This document shows positions 1 through 34,963 of a stretch of 64,000 nt of DNA, one piece after another (the first letter of the stretch is position 1; every line of letters begins with the position of its first letter). Made by a program: the position numbers and the translations under genes. Origin of the DNA: Exiguobacterium marinum DSM 16307 (lineage in GTDB: Bacteria; Bacillota; Bacilli; Exiguobacteriales; Exiguobacteriaceae). The stretch is from positions 2,325,878-2,389,877 of the forward strand of contig NZ_KK211189.1 in the NCBI RefSeq assembly GCF_000620845.1, written 5' to 3'. The notes beneath the pieces were generated by a model. The model ran no database searches. It saw only the letters and a program-made list of their open reading frames with translations, and was not told where the DNA came from.

Positions 1-311
1 GCGAGAAGCGTCGTCACACTGAATCCGTAGAGTGAAAAGCTATAGCCATATCCGATGGCTCCGAGCAGTTCAAATATTGGATACGTCGGCGCGATCCGCT
101 CGCCACACCCGTGACATCTGCCTCGAAGGGCAACATAGCCGAAAATCGGGATGAGTTCCCACGGTGACAATTCGTGACCGCAAGACGGACAATGTGACCG
201 CGGCGTCACGATCGATTGCTGGCGTGGCACGCGGAGCCCGACGACGTTCGTGAACGACGTGATGACCGCCCCAAGGACGATGCTATATAGGAATCCAATC
301 AATTCAATCAA
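1..311 (-). CDS. pilD: Prepilin peptidase, N-terminal part (cut by window edge)
   Basis: Type IV prepilin leader peptidase, an integral membrane aspartyl protease that cleaves and N-methylates the prepilins encoded next to it. About 103 residues are visible. They start with a hydrophobic segment, then the amino-terminal cytoplasmic domain with two CxxC pairs (CPSC and CHGC), typical of the zinc-binding domain of the PilD/ComC family. The catalytic aspartates lie outside the window. The start is a TTG at 311 with an AAAGGAGG ribosome site 8 nt upstream. It is the last visible gene of the minus-strand pilus cluster, just after the major pilin gene. In B. subtilis the homologue comC lies next to folC, which also fits this region. 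Confidence 0.88.
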   Translation of the reverse strand, partial: MIELIGFLYSIVLGAVITSFTNVVGLRVPRQQSIVTPRSHCPSCGHELSPWELIPIFGYVALRGRCHGCGERIAPTYPIFELLGAIGYGYSFSLYGFSVTTLL

Positions 312-395
312 GGAAGGATCCTCCTTTTGTCAGTATATGCCAAAAATAGAAAACCGGCTAGGCTGAGCGAGTGCCCAGCGCCAGCCGGAGTAAAA

Positions 396-875
396 TTATT
401 CTATTTCATCTTTTGATAAATTGTTTTCAAGAATGGCTGTGGCCTTTGTATTTCCACCAATTACTTTCTTACCATCTAAAAATACACGGTATTCATACTG
501 ACCAGCACTTTGAGATACAAACACTATTGCATCATCGTATGCAGCACCCGAATTCAATGGATCTTTTAAATCACTCACATAAGAAGACATATCAACATTT
601 GTTGAACTTTCAGCTAACGGAGTAAACTCGAGTACAGCTTCACTATCTATTGGATTCGAAGCAGTATACAACTTCGCCGCACTCACCATTTGCCTCGCAT
701 CAGCAACCATTGCATCTTTCTTCGAGTTCTCAATGATCCCACCAATCGCAACGACTGCGATGGCTGCGATAATCCCTAAAATAACGACGACGACGAGTAA
801 CTCGACGAGTGTGAGTCCACGCTCATCTTTTAACTGTTTGGCATCTTGCCAAATCATTTTCAACTTTTCTACCAT
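396..875 (-). CDS. Type IV major pilin-like prepilin
   Basis: 159-residue prepilin. A 20-residue basic leader ends in Gly, followed by the class III cleavage and methylation motif (ERG|LTLVELLVV) and a continuous hydrophobic helix (VVVILGIIAAIAVVAIGG). The residue after the cleavage site is Leu rather than the usual Phe or Met. Glu at +5 of the mature protein is kept. The leader is longer than the 6-8 residues common in type IVa pilins. The C-terminal two thirds has no recognisable domain and is coded by more AT-rich DNA than the helix, as expected for a variable pilin head. The ribosome site is AGGGGAG. The gene sits between pilC and the peptidase and has its own promoter, which suits a highly expressed major subunit. 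Confidence 0.85.
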   Translation of the reverse strand: MVEKLKMIWQDAKQLKDERGLTLVELLVVVVILGIIAAIAVVAIGGIIENSKKDAMVADARQMVSAAKLYTASNPIDSEAVLEFTPLAESSTNVDMSSYVSDLKDPLNSGAAYDDAIVFVSQSAGQYEYRVFLDGKKVIGGNTKATAILENNLSKDEIE

Positions 876-960
876 GATTCATTCTCCCCTTTTGTGTAAT
901 GTGCTGTGAATAAACTAGATGAATTACTAAAGACCTAATATAGAAGTAGAACAATTTTAC

Positions 961-1000
961 TATACCTTCAAAATATAGTATTGAAAAGGTATATTTTCAA
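961..1000 (-). promoter_or_regulatory. SigA-type promoter of the pilin gene with overlapping dyad
   Basis: On the minus strand TTGAAA (1000-995) is followed after 17 nt by TATATT (977-972), giving a predicted start near 965 and an untranslated leader of about 90 nt before the pilin ATG at 875. An inverted repeat, TATACCTT (961-968) and AAGGTATA (986-993), flanks the -10 element, so a repressor or activator could bind here. The surrounding pilC-pilin gap (876-1017) is markedly AT-rich and holds nothing else visible. Confidence 0.6.
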
Positions 1001-1017
1001 AAGCCTGCATATTCTTT

Positions 1018-2238
1018 CTACTGATTCTGTATATCCCCATAAATTTGGAACATCGGGACGACAATCGAGATGACGATGACTCCGACGACACTTGCCAATA
1101 CAACGATCAGAAGCGGTTCGATGATGGACTTCAATCGGTCGGTTGTCGTCTCGACCTCGGTCTCATAAAACTCCGCCACTTCGTTCAACATCGAATCTAA
1201 ATCCCCACTCTCTTCCCCGACCGCAATCATCTGGGTCATAAGTGCCGGAAAGTTCGAGTTACGCATAAGCGGTTCATGGAGCGGCACCCCTTGCGCCATC
1301 ATGTCACGAGCCTCCATCAGTCCTTTTCGGATGACGCGGTTTGATACGATGCGCTCGGTGATTTCAATCGCCGTCAAAATCGGGACGGCCGCCTGTAAGA
1401 GAACAGCTAAACTTCGTGTCAATAACGCAATCTGAGACTTCATCACGATCGTCCCGAAAATCGGCATCTTTAGTAGCAACCCATCGATAACGAACCGTTC
1501 CCGATCCCGCTTCAACATCCAAGTGAAGGTGAGGACTCCGAGAATCGCGAGTCCGAGCAACAGCCACCAGTAGGCAGCGATGAAGTCAGAGACCGCGACG
1601 ACGATTTTTGTAATAAGCGGTAGCTCACCACCGAGTTGACCGAAGATACTCGCGAACGTCGGGACGACGTTCACCATTAAAAAGGCGACCACACCGATGG
1701 CGACAATCGAGACGACCAACGGATAGGTGAGAGCGGAGATGACTTTCCGCTTTATATCATATTGCTTTTGGAGTTGAAGCCCGATTTGATCGAGCGCTTC
1801 CTCTAAGTTACCGCTCGTCTCCCCGGCGAGTGCCATCGAACTAAAGAAGTTCGAGAAGACGCGCGGATGTTTTTGAATCGCGACGGAATAGGCAATCCCT
1901 TCTTTTAAATCATCCTCGATTTGACTAAGTGCTTTCTTCAACACTTTCGATTCAGTCTGTACCCGTAAAATCGAGGTCGCCCGAACGATTGGGACACCTG
2001 CCCGGATGAGCGTCGCAAACTGTCGAACGTACATGATCAGGTGTTCAATCTTCACACGTTCCGGAAGTAAATTCACTTCCATATTCAGTCCGGTCGACTC
2101 GAGCTCGGATAGGTCTGTCACGAGAATCGATTCTTGACGCAATTTATCTTTCGCCTCCCGAAGTGAGACGGCCGTGATGCGCCCTTTCTTGCGTTTCCCG
2201 TTCAATAGTTTCCCTTCATACTGGAATATCGCCATCAC
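1018..2238 (-). CDS. pilC: Type IV pilus inner-membrane platform protein PilC
   Basis: 406-residue GspF/PilC-family platform protein, which couples the PilB and PilT motors to pilus assembly in the cytoplasmic membrane. Two repeated T2SSF domains are visible (about residues 70-195 and 270-395), each followed by hydrophobic membrane segments (VVSIVAIGVVAFLMV near 185 and VVLASVVGVIVISIV near 380). Length matches the family. The start is either GTG at 2238 or ATG at 2235; a GAGG ribosome site overlaps the pilT stop. It follows pilT directly and is translated as part of the same operon. Confidence 0.95.
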   Translation of the reverse strand: MMAIFQYEGKLLNGKRKKGRITAVSLREAKDKLRQESILVTDLSELESTGLNMEVNLLPERVKIEHLIMYVRQFATLIRAGVPIVRATSILRVQTESKVLKKALSQIEDDLKEGIAYSVAIQKHPRVFSNFFSSMALAGETSGNLEEALDQIGLQLQKQYDIKRKVISALTYPLVVSIVAIGVVAFLMVNVVPTFASIFGQLGGELPLITKIVVAVSDFIAAYWWLLLGLAILGVLTFTWMLKRDRERFVIDGLLLKMPIFGTIVMKSQIALLTRSLAVLLQAAVPILTAIEITERIVSNRVIRKGLMEARDMMAQGVPLHEPLMRNSNFPALMTQMIAVGEESGDLDSMLNEVAEFYETEVETTTDRLKSIIEPLLIVVLASVVGVIVISIVVPMFQIYGDIQNQ

Positions 2239-2241
2239 TCA

Positions 2242-3279
2242 TCACCTCATCTCTTCTGTCGGGACGGCGTTTGGATTGATGATTCCTTGCCGTACCAATT
2301 GCTCGATGGCAGCATCCATCGATTGCATCCCATTTTGGCGACTCGTCTGGATGACGGTCGGCAATTGGAATTCTTTTTCATTTCGAATCAAATTGGCGAC
2401 AGCCGGATTCCCTAACATGATTTCCATGGCGGCGACACGGCCTTTAGGCACATCGATCCGAGGAAATAACCGCTGACTGACGACCCCGAGAAGGACGTTG
2501 GCGAGTTGCGTCCGGATTTGGTCTTGTTGCTCAGCTGGGAACGCATCGATGATTCGGCTCACGGTCGACATCGCACTCGATGTATGGAGCGTCGCCATGA
2601 CGAGGTGACCCGTCTCTGCCGCCGTCATCGCCGTCGAGATCGTCTCTAAGTCACGCATCTCCCCGAGCAAAATGACGTCCGGATCTTGACGTAAAGCAGC
2701 CCGCAACCCGCTCACGAACTTCATGACATCGGAGCCGATCTCCCGTTGGTCGACGATGCTTTGGTCATGGGAATGCAAATATTCGATCGGATCTTCTAAC
2801 GTGATGATCCGTTTTCGCTGCGTCCGGTTGATCTCATGAATCATCGCCGCAAGCGTCGTTGATTTTCCTGAACCGGTCGGACCCGTCACAAGGATGAGAC
2901 CGTGCGGCTTTTCAATCAAGCGCTTCAACACCGTCGGAAGGTTCAGCTCATTCAATGTCGGGATTTCCCCGGAAATGGAACGGAATGCGATGGCAATCGT
3001 ACCCCGTTGATAGTAAGCATTGACTCGAAAACGCGAAACACGTGGAACACCGAACGAGAAGTCAAGATCCCGGTCTCGCTCTAAACGTTCCCGCATGTCC
3101 TCCGTCATAATTTCTTTTAAATATCCTTCGAGATGATGAGGCAATACCTTCTCCTCGCCCATCGTGATGAGACTCCCATCTACTCGAATGATCGGAGGTG
3201 AGCCTGCCGTCAGATGAATGTCTGAGGCACGTTTCTCGACCGCATTCGTCAAGATGACTTCAATCGATTGATTAATCAT
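2242..3279 (-). CDS. pilT: Pilus retraction ATPase PilT
   Basis: Secretion-type AAA+ hexameric ATPase that depolymerises type IV pili. It shows the PilT signatures: Walker A GPTGSGKSTT near residue 130, an Asp box with LEDPIEYLHS, Walker B VILLGEMRD, and the His box TGHLVMATLHT. The start at 3279 is chosen because GGAG (3290-3287) lies 7 nt upstream. An ATG at 3285 is also in frame but directly abuts that site. It overlaps the pilB stop by 8 nt, implying translational coupling. A retraction ATPase is notable because ordinary B. subtilis ComG pili lack one. It implies dynamic pili and possibly twitching motility. Confidence 0.95.
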   Translation of the reverse strand: MINQSIEVILTNAVEKRASDIHLTAGSPPIIRVDGSLITMGEEKVLPHHLEGYLKEIMTEDMRERLERDRDLDFSFGVPRVSRFRVNAYYQRGTIAIAFRSISGEIPTLNELNLPTVLKRLIEKPHGLILVTGPTGSGKSTTLAAMIHEINRTQRKRIITLEDPIEYLHSHDQSIVDQREIGSDVMKFVSGLRAALRQDPDVILLGEMRDLETISTAMTAAETGHLVMATLHTSSAMSTVSRIIDAFPAEQQDQIRTQLANVLLGVVSQRLFPRIDVPKGRVAAMEIMLGNPAVANLIRNEKEFQLPTVIQTSRQNGMQSMDAAIEQLVRQGIINPNAVPTEEMR

Positions 3280-4942
3280 AAGCATTCTCCGTAATGACCG
3301 TTCGTAATATTTCTTCTGTCGTCGTCAAACCGGCGGCGACTTTTTCTAATCCATCTGCAAGCAGGAACGTTGCGCCTTGCGACTTGGCGTAATCGACCAT
3401 CTCGGACTCGGTCGCTTGGTTCATAATCATCCGACGCAAACCTTCATCAATCGGAATGACTTCATGAATGGCAAGACGACCCCGATAACCCGTGAAGTTA
3501 CATGAGGTGCATCCTTTTCCACGAACGACTTGTTCGATGTGAACCCTTTCCGCTTCAAACAGGCTCTGTTCACTTTTCGAGACTGGTTCGGCATGCCCAC
3601 AGTCACGACAGACGCGTCGAACGAGACGTTGCGCGACGAGCCCGGTCGTCGAAGCGGCGACAAGAAATGGCTCGACGCCCATATCGACGAGACGCGTGAT
3701 GGAACTGATTGCTGAATTCGTATGTAACGTTGATAAGACGAGGTGACCGGTGAGCGAGGCACGAATGGCAATCTCAGCCGTCTCGGTGTCACGTATCTCC
3801 CCGACCATGACGATGTTCGGGTCTTGTCGCAAAATTGAGCGAAGACCTGACGCAAACGTCAACCCGACTTTTGAATTGACCTGGACCTGGTTGATGCCAT
3901 CAAGTTGGTATTCGACCGGGTCTTCAACCGTGATGATGTTCTTCGTCTCATCATTCAATTCTTTCAACGATGCGTATAGTGTCGAGGACTTCCCTGAACC
4001 GGTCGGACCGGTAATCAGGATAATGCCATTCGGACGTTTCAACATGTCGCGGTACGACTGTTCGTTTCGTTCACCGAATCCGAGTTTCGTCAAATCGGTC
4101 AGTCCTTGTGATGAATCAAGGACCCGAATAACAATCTTTTCCCCATACATCGTCGGGAGCGTCGACACCCGGAAGTCATAGGCCCGGTTGCGCAACGTAT
4201 ACTTGATCCGACCATCTTGCGGCAGACGACTCTCCGTAATGTCAAGGTTACTCATGACTTTGAGACGCGTCAGCATGACGCTTTGAATTTTCTTCGGGTA
4301 GACCGTTTCTGTCCGTAAGTCCCCGTCAATCCGAAAACGCACATGAAGTTGTTTCTCGTGCGGATCAAAATGAATATCCGATGCACGTTGATCGATCGCA
4401 CTTAAGAACAGTTGGTTCACAAGTCGGATAATCGGGGCATCATCTCGACTAGCAGTCTCTTGCCGCTCGATTTCTGGAGCATCCTCTTTCAAAATTTCGA
4501 TGAGCGAATGGTCCATCTCGTAGTAGCGACTGATCGTCTTTCGAATTTGCTCTCTTGTCGCAATCCCAATCTCGATGTTCATGCCGGTCTGTAACCGGAC
4601 GTCATCGATCGCAATGAGATCAAGTGGATCAGCTGTCACGACATGAAGCGTATTTCCATTCACCTCAAATGGCATGATGTCATGCTTTTGCGCCAACGCT
4701 TTCGGCACGAGTTTCGTGACCGTCACGTTGATATCATAGGAATACAATTCAATAATCGGAACTTGCAACTGTTCATGAACCATTTGAATCAACTGCGTTT
4801 CCGTAATATGGTTCAGTCGAATCAGTGCGTCTCCTAGCTTTTCTCCGGGACGCTTTTGTTCGAGTGCCTCATCGAGCTGACTTGTCGTAATGAGTCCCGC
4901 CTCAATCAGCATCTCGCCTAATCTACGTTTCGTTCGTCTCAC
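3272..4942 (-). CDS. pilB: Pilus assembly ATPase PilB
   Basis: 556-residue GspE/PilB extension ATPase. The N-terminal MshEN-like domain (residues 1-150, with RLGEMLIEAG and LGDALIRL) is of the type that binds cyclic-di-GMP in some homologues. The catalytic domain follows, with Walker A GPTGSGKSST, Walker B IVMVGEIRDTETA and the His box LTGHLVLSTLHTN. A tetracysteine zinc motif (CRDC ... CTSC) lies near residues 455-495, diagnostic of assembly rather than retraction ATPases. The start is GTG at 4942, one base after the stop of the upstream small membrane gene, with only a modest ribosome site. Confidence 0.95.
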   Translation of the reverse strand: MRRTKRRLGEMLIEAGLITTSQLDEALEQKRPGEKLGDALIRLNHITETQLIQMVHEQLQVPIIELYSYDINVTVTKLVPKALAQKHDIMPFEVNGNTLHVVTADPLDLIAIDDVRLQTGMNIEIGIATREQIRKTISRYYEMDHSLIEILKEDAPEIERQETASRDDAPIIRLVNQLFLSAIDQRASDIHFDPHEKQLHVRFRIDGDLRTETVYPKKIQSVMLTRLKVMSNLDITESRLPQDGRIKYTLRNRAYDFRVSTLPTMYGEKIVIRVLDSSQGLTDLTKLGFGERNEQSYRDMLKRPNGIILITGPTGSGKSSTLYASLKELNDETKNIITVEDPVEYQLDGINQVQVNSKVGLTFASGLRSILRQDPNIVMVGEIRDTETAEIAIRASLTGHLVLSTLHTNSAISSITRLVDMGVEPFLVAASTTGLVAQRLVRRVCRDCGHAEPVSKSEQSLFEAERVHIEQVVRGKGCTSCNFTGYRGRLAIHEVIPIDEGLRRMIMNQATESEMVDYAKSQGATFLLADGLEKVAAGLTTTEEILRTVITENAYD

Positions 4943-4943
4943 G

Positions 4944-5234
4944 TTACTTCACCATCCTTTGAGGAGCCTCCTCTTGCTTGTCTTTGTCTTCACGTTCTTC
5001 GATAAAGACACTCACAGCTACCCCTCCAATCAATGCAACAACAAGAATGAGCCATGCCCACCACGTTTGTACGAACGCTTCTTGTACCATCAAATAGATG
5101 CCACCAGACATGAGGGCCGTCCATAGACTGATGACGAGCTTCGTTTCACGCTTGCGCATCATCGGGACGGACAAGGCGAACAACGTCAGTGTGGCGAGTA
5201 CCCAAAATCCAAGTAAAATCAAATAGCCAATCAT
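4944..5234 (-). CDS. Small three-helix membrane protein of the pilus operon
   Basis: 96 residues with three hydrophobic segments (about 2-22, 34-50, 58-80) and a charged C-terminal tail (EEREDKDKQEEAP). The ribosome site GGAGG lies 9 nt before the ATG. The start overlaps the stop of the upstream VanW-like gene by 4 nt and the stop is one base from the pilB GTG, so it is locked into the operon. No family is recognised. Its place just upstream of pilB is where alignment-complex genes (pilM-pilN-pilO) often sit in other systems, so a platform or assembly accessory role is a reasonable guess only. Confidence 0.7.
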   Translation of the reverse strand: MIGYLILLGFWVLATLTLFALSVPMMRKRETKLVISLWTALMSGGIYLMVQEAFVQTWWAWLILVVALIGGVAVSVFIEEREDKDKQEEAPQRMVK

Positions 5235-6442
5235 CCGACAGCTTCCTCCTCTGTAGGGACCTCTTCCAATACGGGTGGTTCTGCCTCAAACGGATTTCCG
5301 TTCGAATCCTCTGTGAACGGATCTTCTTCATTCTCATCCGGGAATGTCGGAATCACCGGTTCGACCGGGTCAGGTAGCGGGAGTGGAACTGAGCTCTTCG
5401 TCACGATTTCCGGTGTCGGGGCATAAAAGTCAAACCCGAGCAATTCCATTTTTTCCCCTTCTTCTGTCACTGTGACACGGTAGAGCTTACCTGATTGTCC
5501 ATCTTGACCAGACTGCGTGACAGATGAACTGCCAGACGGGAGCGACGATGAGAAACGGACGACTTTTTGATGCGGGACCGTCTTCACTTCCTCCACCCTT
5601 GCCTCAAAGGCAGCTTCAAACGGCTGACCTAATAACTGAACTGTCACCGTGCCTCCTTCATTTAAGACTAGGATTGCGTAAGATGAATCCTCACGATTTT
5701 GGACTGCAAAGTTCGAACGATCGTCCACTTTCGTGTCATAACCTAGCTCCACACCAGGCGGAAGCGTTTCATGCGGGACCCGTTCAAGAATCGCAAACGG
5801 TGTCGCGGCGAACATTCGATAGAGCGAAGAGCCGAGCGTCGTGAGGGCTTCATAGTCTTCCCCGAACGATTTGAGACTAAAGATATCCCCGGCGGCCATC
5901 TCGAATCCGTTCATCCGATCGAGTGCCGACTGCATCGCCGGTGTCGGGCTCACGGTGAATGAGGCGACGACTTCACTTTCAGCCGCGACTTGCTCTAACG
6001 TCACAGTTGATTCAAGCATAGATGCAGCTTCCATCAATGTCGGTACAATCATCGTCATCGTCACAGGTTGCCCTTCAAGATAAGGTTCGACCTTTGCTTC
6101 GTCAACAGACGTTAAAAGTGGATAAGCGCCCGTGTCCTCGATGGAGTCAAGCGTATTCGATACATCGAACGTCACGATTTCTTTCCCAATCTCCATGATC
6201 GTTCCATCCACCAAATTGACCGAAAATGGCAACGTATTAAAATCTTTGATCGCATTGTCAAGACGAACGTTCGCTTCTTCCTTCGTCATCCCTGACACGT
6301 CGATGCCTGCGACCGTCGTCTCGATATATGTAGCACTCGACTCAGCAGACGCGTCTAAATAATTGACGAGTCCGATCGTCGGCAATGTCACGAGTACGAC
6401 GAGTCCAATCAAAATGACTAGATGCATCCCATACCGCTTCAT
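5231..6442 (-). CDS. Membrane-anchored VanW-like protein, first gene of the pilus operon
   Basis: 403 residues. It has an N-terminal transmembrane anchor (LVILIGLVVLVTLPTIGLV), then a segment with the VAGIDVSGMTKEEA signature typical of the domain that precedes VanW domains in Gram-positive proteins. A diverged VanW domain follows at about residues 175-290 (GDIFSLKSFGE, GSSLYRMFAA, LERVPHE, DRSNFAVQN). The C-terminal tail is rich in Pro, Glu and Asp. The protein should face the outside of the cell. VanW function is not established; the family appears near cell-wall genes. The ATG at 6442 has a strong GGGGGG-type ribosome site. It begins the minus-strand pil operon, so a role in passing the pilus through peptidoglycan is an inference from position. 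Confidence 0.72.
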   Translation of the reverse strand: MKRYGMHLVILIGLVVLVTLPTIGLVNYLDASAESSATYIETTVAGIDVSGMTKEEANVRLDNAIKDFNTLPFSVNLVDGTIMEIGKEIVTFDVSNTLDSIEDTGAYPLLTSVDEAKVEPYLEGQPVTMTMIVPTLMEAASMLESTVTLEQVAAESEVVASFTVSPTPAMQSALDRMNGFEMAAGDIFSLKSFGEDYEALTTLGSSLYRMFAATPFAILERVPHETLPPGVELGYDTKVDDRSNFAVQNREDSSYAILVLNEGGTVTVQLLGQPFEAAFEARVEEVKTVPHQKVVRFSSSLPSGSSSVTQSGQDGQSGKLYRVTVTEEGEKMELLGFDFYAPTPEIVTKSSVPLPLPDPVEPVIPTFPDENEEDPFTEDSNGNPFEAEPPVLEEVPTEEEAVG

Positions 6443-17096: not shown

Positions 17097-17908
17097 TCGA
17101 ACGGGAAGATGACCTCGAGTGAAGAATAAATTTTTGATAAAGACCCGAACGTCACTCTTGACGCTCGGGCTGCTCTTTGTTTCGAATTATGGAACGGGAA
17201 TGATTCGGACGAAGGATCCGGTAGAGAGTCAACGAGTGTCAACAACTCTTCTTCCGAGACATTTCCCGTCACAAGAATCAGTTTGTCTTGGCTGATGTAG
17301 TATAATCCATTCCCACTTGGCTGGTTCAATCGATACCGCTCCGCCCCATCGGCATTCTGATTGATCGACTCCCCATCCCCTACACTGAATGCGTCGGTCA
17401 TCAAAATGGTAACCAATTGCGTCTCATCATACAAAGTCCACAGTTTTACAGGTCGTTCACTATCATCAATTTCACTATCGATTATGTACATCGAATCTTG
17501 TGGGAGCGCCAAACCATGTTGTGTTTTTTCAGAAACTTCAGCTATTCCAAAGTGCTTCATTCCACGCATGATCCATTCCCCGTCACGTGAATAGTGATAT
17601 ACCCCAAAGGAAGGCATTTGGTTCGGATGACCAATCGCGATCAATCCGATGTCTCCAACTTTTGCCTCATAGATGACATCCTTTGTTGCAAGGCGTCTTT
17701 CTGATCCATCCTTATATTGCAGCGTGATTTGATGAACCACCGTATCTGACAATGATTCGGTCCCTTTTGGTACGTCTTCAACCAGCGTCCCTACCCATTC
17801 ACTCGTTTCAATTTCCTCTCCACCTGTCTCGACAAACTCCATCTCTTCTGACGGCGTACACCCGACCAATCCTAATACAAGAACACCTATTATCCCGATT
17901 CGTCTCAT
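17018..17908 (-). CDS. Putative lipoprotein, C-terminus probably frameshifted
   Basis: Starts MRRIGIIGVLVLGLVGC at 17908 with GGGGATA 7 nt upstream. LVGC is a lipobox, so the product is likely lipid-anchored outside the membrane. No domain is recognised. As it stands the frame runs through a hairpin (17142-17171) and about 80 nt into the convergent ASCH gene, giving an atypical tail rich in Ser and Arg. In the neighbouring frame the same DNA reads GSFVRIIPVP then TAA at 17189-17187, just before the hairpin. A one-base indel near 17210-17230, true or a sequencing error, is therefore likely. The authentic end is probably 17187. Confidence 0.62.
   Translation of the reverse strand: MRRIGIIGVLVLGLVGCTPSEEMEFVETGGEEIETSEWVGTLVEDVPKGTESLSDTVVHQITLQYKDGSERRLATKDVIYEAKVGDIGLIAIGHPNQMPSFGVYHYSRDGEWIMRGMKHFGIAEVSEKTQHGLALPQDSMYIIDSEIDDSERPVKLWTLYDETQLVTILMTDAFSVGDGESINQNADGAERYRLNQPSGNGLYYISQDKLILVTGNVSEEELLTLVDSLPDPSSESFPFHNSKQRAARASRVTFGSLSKIYSSLEVIFPFDHSFSLNRSTTIKRSQTSFILGEKDN
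17142..17171 (-). terminator. Hairpin between convergent genes, weak terminator
   Basis: CCCGAACGTC (17144-17153) faces GACGCTCGGG (17160-17169). On the minus strand the single mismatch becomes a G-U pair. The following T-run (TCTTTATC) is short. It lies inside the extended lipoprotein frame, which supports that frame being unnatural downstream of it. Confidence 0.5.
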
Positions 17909-20689: not shown

Positions 20690-20950
20690 AAACGGCTTCT
20701 CTCGTCCTATACGCTAAGGACGAAAGAAGCCGAATCTTCCGCGGTACCACCTTAGTTCGCCAACAAAGTGGCGCACTCAAAATCGAATAACGGTCGATGG
20801 ACCGAACTTTCCTACTCCATTCAGAAAGTCAGCTCCGAGGCGACTTCCGCGTCCATCCCTCGCAACCTTTCACCAAGCGGTCACGTCTCTAAAAGGAATG
20901 AATGATGCGTACTACTCCTCATCAAAGCAATTCATCGTATCTGTTAAATA
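20690..20950 (-). promoter_or_regulatory. T-box riboswitch leader of valS
   Basis: Untranslated leader that senses uncharged tRNA-Val and controls read-through into valS. The conserved T-box AAGGTGGTACCGCGG reads on the minus strand at 20753-20739. The competing terminator follows: GGCTTCTTTCGTCC and GGACGAGAGAAGCC (20731-20694) with a T-run. Upstream there is a stem I region with a GAGA element and a GGTTGGTGAAAGG-type terminal part. A GUC triplet at 20844-20842, in the context GAAGTCGCC, is a plausible specifier codon for valine; its loop position is inferred, not folded. Confidence 0.9.
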
Positions 20951-34518: not shown

Positions 34519-34552
34519 AAAAAGAGATGATCTCCGTAGAGACCATCTCTAT
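34519..34552 (-). terminator. Intrinsic terminator of the split tRNA-Arg gene
   Basis: On the minus strand AGAGATGGTCTC and GAGATCATCTCT (one G-U pair) form a 12-bp stem, followed by TTTTTTCA. It is 13 nt downstream of the tRNA 3' end. Confidence 0.85.
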
Positions 34553-34564
34553 TTTAAATGGAAG

Positions 34565-34922
34565 CGTCCCAAGAGGGATTCGAACCCCCGACCGACGGCT
34601 TAGCTTACCACCATGACTTTCGTCACCAACATTGCGTTGTTTGTAGTCTGGACTATATCTTCACCATTTCAGGTGCGACACGTGTAGTCTCTACGGAACC
34701 TCACGAGCATGATGCCCCTCCATTGATTCTACCTCTACGTTCGTAGCCATTCGAATCAACTCGACCCGATTATACGGGAATGAGTTTCCTCGGTATTACC
34801 ATCAGCATCATCTGTTAAGGCTTCACCGATATAGTGTCGTCCACTTTATAGGTTTCTGTTTCCCTATAAAGGCTCCTATTTGTCTTGAAGGCCGTTGCTC
34901 TATCCTGCTGAGCTATTGGGAC
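34565..34922 (-). tRNA. tRNA-Arg(UCU) gene interrupted by a group I intron
   Basis: Exon 1 (34922-34888, 35 nt) carries the 5' acceptor strand GTCCCAA, the D arm (GCTC...GAGC), the 5' anticodon stem ACGGC and loop bases C-T-T. Exon 2 (34603-34565, 39 nt) carries CTAA, the stem GCCGT, the T arm with GGTTCGAATCC, the acceptor TTGGGAC and discriminator G. Joined, they give a 74-nt cloverleaf with the loop CUUCUAA, hence anticodon UCU, reading AGA and AGG. CCA is not encoded. The insertion lies between U34 and C35, the same kind of site as the cyanobacterial and plastid tRNA-Leu(UAA) intron. The gene has its own promoter and terminator. The precursor must be spliced to function. Confidence 0.93.
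34604..34887 (-). ncRNA. Self-splicing group I intron, 284 nt, without an ORF
   Basis: The exon before it ends in U and the intron ends in G, as the group I rule requires. Core elements on the minus strand: AGAGACTACA (34692-34683) matches the R element and AAGATATAGTCC (34661-34650) the S element, and GACTA pairs with TAGTC to make P7. A 9-bp P2 hairpin is formed by intron bases 17-25 (CTTTATAGG) and 36-44 (CCTATAAAG). A GAGGAAACTC hairpin suits the P5 region and TGACGAAAGTCA a P9 hairpin. Intron bases 12-17 (GGAGCC) may be the guide that pairs with exon GGCCUU, with a U-G pair at the splice site and one C/A mismatch. No homing endonuclease fits in it. Confidence 0.9.
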
Positions 34923-34934
34923 ATTGACATGAAA

Positions 34935-34963
34935 ACTATAATAGAAAAATGGTTTCCTGTCAA
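34935..34963 (-). promoter_or_regulatory. Strong SigA promoter of the split tRNA-Arg gene
   Basis: Consensus TTGACA (34963-34958), 17-nt spacer, TATAGT (34940-34935). The start would fall near 34928, only about 6 nt before the tRNA. Confidence 0.85.

Follow-up and report, generated by a model that had tools for sequence, protein, structure and literature searches.

The tRNA-Arg(UCU) gene in the window (the whole stretch of 64,000 nucleotides that was analysed) is split between U34 and C35 by a 284-nt insert, and homology, covariation and a guide sequence support its assignment as a group I intron. Judged from the sequence, the intron very probably splices itself out by means of a guide for the anticodon loop and would belong to a mobile family, of which this copy has no endonuclease gene.

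The gene lies on the minus strand, where joining the exons at 34922-34888 and 34603-34565 gives a complete 74-nt tRNA-Arg(UCU). The coordinates of the initial annotation are exact; ARAGORN with introns allowed finds the same gene, tRNA-Arg(tct) (complement 34564-34922, 284-nt intron in the anticodon), as its sole call in the window and makes no calls in five shuffled windows. With introns off (the default), ARAGORN finds no tRNA in the 64-kb window, which bears out the warning that standard tRNA finders may miss the gene. In ARAGORN the joined exons fold as a full tRNA-Arg(tct) and the unspliced gene yields none. The gene comprises the following features, in addition to the intron.

34935-34963, minus strand: sigma-70-type promoter, TTGACA-17-TATAGT (11 of 12 consensus matches; consensus match only)
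34888-34922, minus strand: 5' exon, tRNA-Arg(UCU) nt 1-34, ending in C32 U33 U34 (ARAGORN with introns)
34565-34603, minus strand: 3' exon, tRNA-Arg(UCU) nt 35-73, CCA not encoded (ARAGORN with introns)
34523-34550, minus strand: intrinsic terminator 3' of the tRNA, 12-pair stem and T-rich tail (consensus match only)

The bases of the 5' exon are those of the uninterrupted genes in G001 and G007, and the 39 bases of the 3' exon recur with 100% identity in several uninterrupted genes, among them those of G001 and G007. The end of the promoter is 12 bases from the mature 5' end of the tRNA. With its own promoter and terminator, tRNA-Arg(UCU) looks like a stand-alone unit. It is flanked by what we take, from reading the sequences, to be a YsnB-like phosphoesterase gene and an ORF adjoining trigger factor. 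Elsewhere in the window, a T-box leader (134.6 bits) is located at 20713-20934 on the minus strand.

The Rfam group I model, proposed as a check in the initial annotation, gives a match below its cut-off: RF00028 (Intron_gpI) aligns over the whole model with 34633-34898 (30.6 bits; E 5e-6 when 501 bases were searched). This falls under the curated gathering score of 50, so a default Rfam scan misses the intron, and at the curated cut-off nothing is reported over it. The window intron is the only group I candidate of its own genome in the Intron_gpI search (E 6.8e-6). Its folding energy has a z of -3.4, and none of 200 shuffles folds as well. A P2-P9 structure was drawn up for the window copy and compared with an alignment of 67 introns, which has 197 columns and contains 66 distinct cores.

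34604-34887, minus strand: group I intron, 284 nt, without endonuclease ORF (RF00028 and alignment with 66 relatives)
34873-34878, minus strand: internal guide UAG-GAG, pairing with anticodon-loop CUU-CUA
34844-34871, minus strand: P2 hairpin, 9 pairs (95% paired over 66 sequences, 7 of 9 covary)
34834-34839, minus strand: P3 5' strand CGACAC, with the 3' strand GUGUCG at 34676-34681 (100% paired, 5 of 6 covary)
34790-34829, minus strand: P4-P5 domain, P4 strands at 34825-34829 and 34790-34794 (P4 94% paired, 4 of 5 covary)
34706-34783, minus strand: P6-loop insert, 78 nt, the site of the endonuclease gene in relatives (alignment with relatives bearing the gene and with relatives in which it is deleted)
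34685-34689, minus strand: P7 5' strand GACUA, the R element (invariant in 66 of 66 distinct sequences)
34662-34675, minus strand: P8 hairpin (100% paired, 3 of 4 covary)
34651-34655, minus strand: P7 3' strand UAGUC, the S element (invariant; also in the search pattern)
34614-34625, minus strand: P9b hairpin with GAAA tetraloop (99% paired, 4 of 4 covary)
34604, minus strand: terminal guanosine (omega G), followed by CUAA of the 3' exon (this G was a condition of the scan pattern)

Covariation is found for 32 of the 46 proposed core pairs over the 66 distinct cores; P9.0 is 94% paired (3 of 5 covary) and P5 is weaker (71% paired). For P2, P3, P8 and P9b, shuffled partners score well below the proposed ones; with slid partners the pairing collapses. 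The slid control somewhat favours the structure, which was derived from the window; the compensatory changes are independent of that. P7, being invariant, cannot covary and counts as presence only. The R and S elements of P7, the P2 and P9-type hairpins, the U that precedes the insert and the G at its 3' end had all been pointed out in the initial annotation, and all are present. The window intron presumably resembles the tRNA-Leu and Azoarcus introns, and subgroup IC3 would be a candidate placement for it. A non-group I element, removed for example by protein enzymes, would agree with the score under the Rfam cut-off but not with a complete P3-P9 core with covariation, the R and S elements, the U-G at the 5' site and the terminal G. 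Given the core covariation, we regard such an element as very unlikely, to the point of being negligible.

In the proposed reaction, the precursor would be transcribed and the intron would fold into its P3-P9 core. The guide 5'-UAGGAG-3' would align along the anticodon loop: GAG pairs with C32U33U34 (P1, with a U34-G wobble at the splice site) and UAG pairs with C35U36A37 of the 3' exon (P10). Guanosine would attack 3' of U34, the free 3'-OH of U34 would attack after the terminal G, and the ligated exons would form a tRNA that reads AGA. The match of the guide is an independent check, as the locus scan constrained the 3' side only. In the 79 tRNA-Arg(UCU) introns (bacterial and phage), whose guide sequences are related and so are not independent trials, the base before GAGC is always G, matching C35; A lies opposite U36 in 66 (two of the remaining 13 keep a G-U pair), and the full UAG is present in 48 and absent from 31. 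The same intron occurs in hosts with differing anticodon stems, for example CAACGGCC, CAACGCCC and CATCTGCC; as no base outside the loop takes part in the pairing with the guide, such differences would not block use in other hosts. Self-splicing of the window intron is predicted and very likely.

The gene is the sole arginine tRNA gene found for codon AGA, which is used 7 times across nine neighbouring genes. The initial annotation had raised the matter of another tRNA-Arg(UCU) in the genome; the exon search gave no second match in the own assembly (which has N runs and in which only 38 tRNAs were found), nor in the two-contig congeners G006 and G013. The own-genome tRNA set was compiled by Rfam and T-loop scans and is incomplete because of the N runs; the assembly is probably missing some tRNA clusters. 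An N run at about 131-132.5 kb of G000:C2 (L066, L077) adjoins a tRNA-Ser/Asn pair. With N runs beside a tRNA cluster and 38 tRNAs, the own assembly could conceivably hide a further tRNA-Arg(UCU) in one of its gaps. If the intron were decayed and non-splicing, the gene would be a pseudogene and AGA would be decoded by another tRNA gene. The gaps beside the tRNA cluster would accommodate this, and splicing is read from sequence; however, the exons and promoter are intact, the core helices are kept by compensatory change across the family, neither the own genome nor the two-contig congeners hold another exon match, and both gene halves are kept in 15 of 19 congeners. We consider a pseudogene highly improbable and retain the self-splicing intron. 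Since the gene, which encodes a required tRNA, is invisible to default ARAGORN and at the Rfam curated cut-off, tRNA-Arg(UCU) may seem to be absent from the annotation of Exiguobacterium genomes and of those of many other bacteria.

The initial annotation had also asked whether other Exiguobacterium carry the insert. The intron is present in 15 of 19 species of the genus, and the other four have an uninterrupted gene with a precise empty site. In the sister genus, no species of 19 has the intron, and the precise empty site is found in all 19. The window copy contains no endonuclease reading frame, so the earlier statement that the intron has no endonuclease gene holds for this copy; it does not hold for the sister Exiguobacterium sp. 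s124 (G016), which has the same intron (two flanking parts 98-99% identical to the window copy) and whose P6 loop holds an intact gene for a 137-residue homing endonuclease of the PD-(D/E)XK type (PF11645, E 1.6e-36). G007, the nearest to G016 in the flanking-gene tree, has an empty site. Two histories were weighed: vertical inheritance of an old intron within the genus, which four lineages would then have lost precisely, and repeated gain by homing. The vertical history agrees with the intron trees, in which the Exiguobacterium introns are one group and which sort, more widely, largely by phylum. It is set against the scatter of the four empty species in the flanking-gene tree (five changes in all are needed), the recombination with an empty allele that exact loss from a tRNA gene requires, and the intact endonuclease copy in G016 next to the empty G007. 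We give vertical descent somewhat less than an even chance. In the preferred reading, the family would have spread by homing of its PD-(D/E)XK-bearing relatives together with exchange with intronless alleles, and the window copy would be a member that is free of the endonuclease.

The homing endonuclease is encoded in relatives G016, L152, L175 and others. Genes of a similar kind are present in Bacillus sp. FJAT-14578, in Priestia abyssalis and in Bacteroidota and Chloroflexota copies, and one acidobacterial intron copy holds a LAGLIDADG gene. The endonuclease profile matches PDB 2OST (E 0.0012), an entry titled 'putative endonuclease', which we take to be I-Ssp6803I. The Bacilli copies form a decay series of intact, frameshifted (Pullulanibacillus) and internally deleted genes (Shimazuella, G072) and short stubs. 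The inserts of G072, L180, L159, L192, L125, L174 and L142 have similarity to the endonuclease gene above that of at least 297 of 300 shuffles. The 78-nt P6 insert of the window was rejected as a proven endonuclease remnant, as its similarity to the ends of endonuclease genes is reached by 108 of 300 shuffles. We infer that the window stub descends from an endonuclease-bearing copy. The series from intact through frameshifted and deleted to endonuclease-free copies, with the empty sister sites, makes gain, decay and loss of a tRNA intron testable in one genus.

In G072 (L072, 5644-17430), a stretch of about 11 kb with a type I restriction-modification system lies beside the intron-bearing tRNA-Arg(UCU). 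On its other side it is bounded by a 66-base repeat consisting of the last 27 intron bases and exon 2; a broken PD-(D/E)XK endonuclease gene is located after the repeat, at 17594. The stretch looks like an island that uses tRNA-Arg(UCU) as its attachment site. A repeat belonging to this type of island is found near an uninterrupted tRNA-Arg(UCU) in G051 (L073, 7712-7775), with an upstream element sequence in common with G072.

An intron in tRNA-Arg(UCU) of a member of the Bacilli had been called unusual, which overstates its rarity, given its frequency in sampled Bacilli, its spread over five phyla and an earlier mention in Beggiatoa and Thiomargarita (below). In a sample of 399 Bacilli genomes, 25, from 8 of the 145 genera, fit a generalised pattern. 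Every one of the 25 has tRNA-Arg(UCU) exon sequence, and a reversed-pattern control gave no matches over the same 399. The pattern misses variants; G072, with the intron at 80% identity, is outside the 25. A pattern scan of the genomes of 84,980 species gave 71 loci in five phyla, of which 69 parse as tRNA-Arg(UCU) split after U34 (one of these, L128, is short, parses poorly and was dropped). Among them are Exiguobacterium, Domibacillus, Priestia, Paenisporosarcina, Melghirimyces and Shimazuella, as well as Vibrio, Photobacterium, Aeromonas, Niastella and many Acidobacteriota and Chloroflexota assemblies. The exceptions to the sorting of the intron tree by phylum are Chloroflexota, in two places, and one acidobacterium among Bacteroidota. 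A plasmid collection held no match to the intron.

The same pattern gave 11 contigs in IMG/VR. Nine of these carry a phage tRNA-Arg(UCU) with the intron and without encoded CCA, several in tRNA arrays, and several of the phage loci adjoin phage-like genes (terminase, primase-helicase, ribonucleotide reductase). HNH genes are found in the phage introns L197 (Pfam) and L199, L202 and L205 (alike by sequence), and a PD-(D/E)XK gene in L200. L201 and L203 resemble tRNA genes of the host at the edge of a provirus and were left out of the phage tRNA count. In both, an intron-bearing tRNA-Arg(UCU) with encoded CCA is located at the extreme end of a provirus contig, which suggests that proviruses integrate in this gene. 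L203, on a contig called viral, also encodes an RNA polymerase beta'-type protein (16-6186, plus strand) with an intein that has a LAGLIDADG domain.

With a looser pattern, phage tRNAs for Lys(UUU), Ile(UAU) and Leu(UAA) were also found to be interrupted by introns after U34. Two Lys introns have the guide UAAGAG, two Ile introns UAUGAG and the Leu intron UUUGAG, each matching nt 35-37 of its own tRNA. Overall, the triplet before the constant GAG matches nt 35-37 in 5 of 9 non-Arg(UCU) phage introns, and the rule fails or is partial in the other four (L208, L217, L226 and L231, with L217 and L231 apparently one intron). The tree places the Ile and Leu phage introns among those of Arg(UCU), and some of them have long branches. 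Five further IMG/VR loci (L213, L216, L223, L225, L232) are phage tRNA-Gln(CUG) genes split after C34 by a different type of group I-like intron; C, not U, precedes the insert, and they are outside the guide rule. The phage copies suggest a route between phyla. Chances are about equal for and against a single mobile lineage with a constant GAG and an exchangeable triplet for nt 35-37, which, probably carried by phages, would have colonised Arg(UCU), Lys(UUU), Ile(UAU) and Leu(UAA) tRNAs after U34 in phage arrays and in bacteria of five phyla.

The phage Leu intron (L207) is from Agrobacterium phage Atu_ph07 (MF403008.1, about 112.9-113.3 kb), where a tRNA-Leu(UAA) is split after U34 with the guide UUUGAG. 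The tRNA is unannotated in the Atu_ph07 record, in which only small hypothetical proteins are annotated there. The initial annotation had noted that the insertion point equals that of the tRNA-Leu intron and had left both independent insertion and transfer in play. The shared point stands, and independent insertion is now less favoured. An origin independent of the tRNA-Leu(UAA) introns, the same site being a chance choice, would fit the differing triplet next to GAG (UAG against UUU), and the comparison is with one phage Leu intron with a clear guide; but this intron has the same GAG and a near-identical 3' end AUAGUGGUAUG, and it falls among the Arg(UCU) introns in the tree. We regard an independent origin as doubtful. 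The common insertion point probably reflects kinship, to judge from the related core and guide of the phage tRNA-Leu(UAA) intron.

Phage introns known by 2014 were all in protein-coding genes (review PMC3984707), and it is against this view that the phage tRNA copies matter. The open-licence literature yielded nothing on the copies in Exiguobacterium or other Bacilli, on a family that spans phyla or on group I introns in phage tRNAs, an absence that is weak evidence. Putative group I introns in tRNA-Arg(TCT) are mentioned for Beggiatoa (BOGUAY) and Ca. Thiomargarita nelsonii, in one sentence that gives neither the type nor the structure nor the base of insertion (Flood et al. 2016, PMC4853749, citing MacGregor et al. 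2013). They share the tRNA and the group I assignment with the window copy, a likeness by description only, and come from another phylum; the gammaproteobacterial relatives found here insert after U34. The tRNA-Leu(UAA) intron likewise inserts after U34 of the anticodon. The tRNA-Leu(UAA) introns are group I introns for which the guide GAG for C32U33U34 is expected, but they differ from the window intron in the tRNA and the P10 triplet; the tie of the window intron to the cyanobacterial tRNA-Leu introns runs through one phage tRNA-Leu(UAA) intron. The Synechocystis tRNA-fMet intron with I-Ssp6803I has a PD-(D/E)XK endonuclease, as do relatives of the window intron, but lies in another tRNA at another insertion point, and the window copy is without an endonuclease gene. 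Azoarcus tRNA-Ile(CAU) and Agrobacterium tRNA-Arg(CCU) also have small group I introns in the anticodon loop, at another loop position and with a guide different from that of the window intron. Bacterial tRNAs with a group I intron in the anticodon loop are already known, and the window intron is a real further case.
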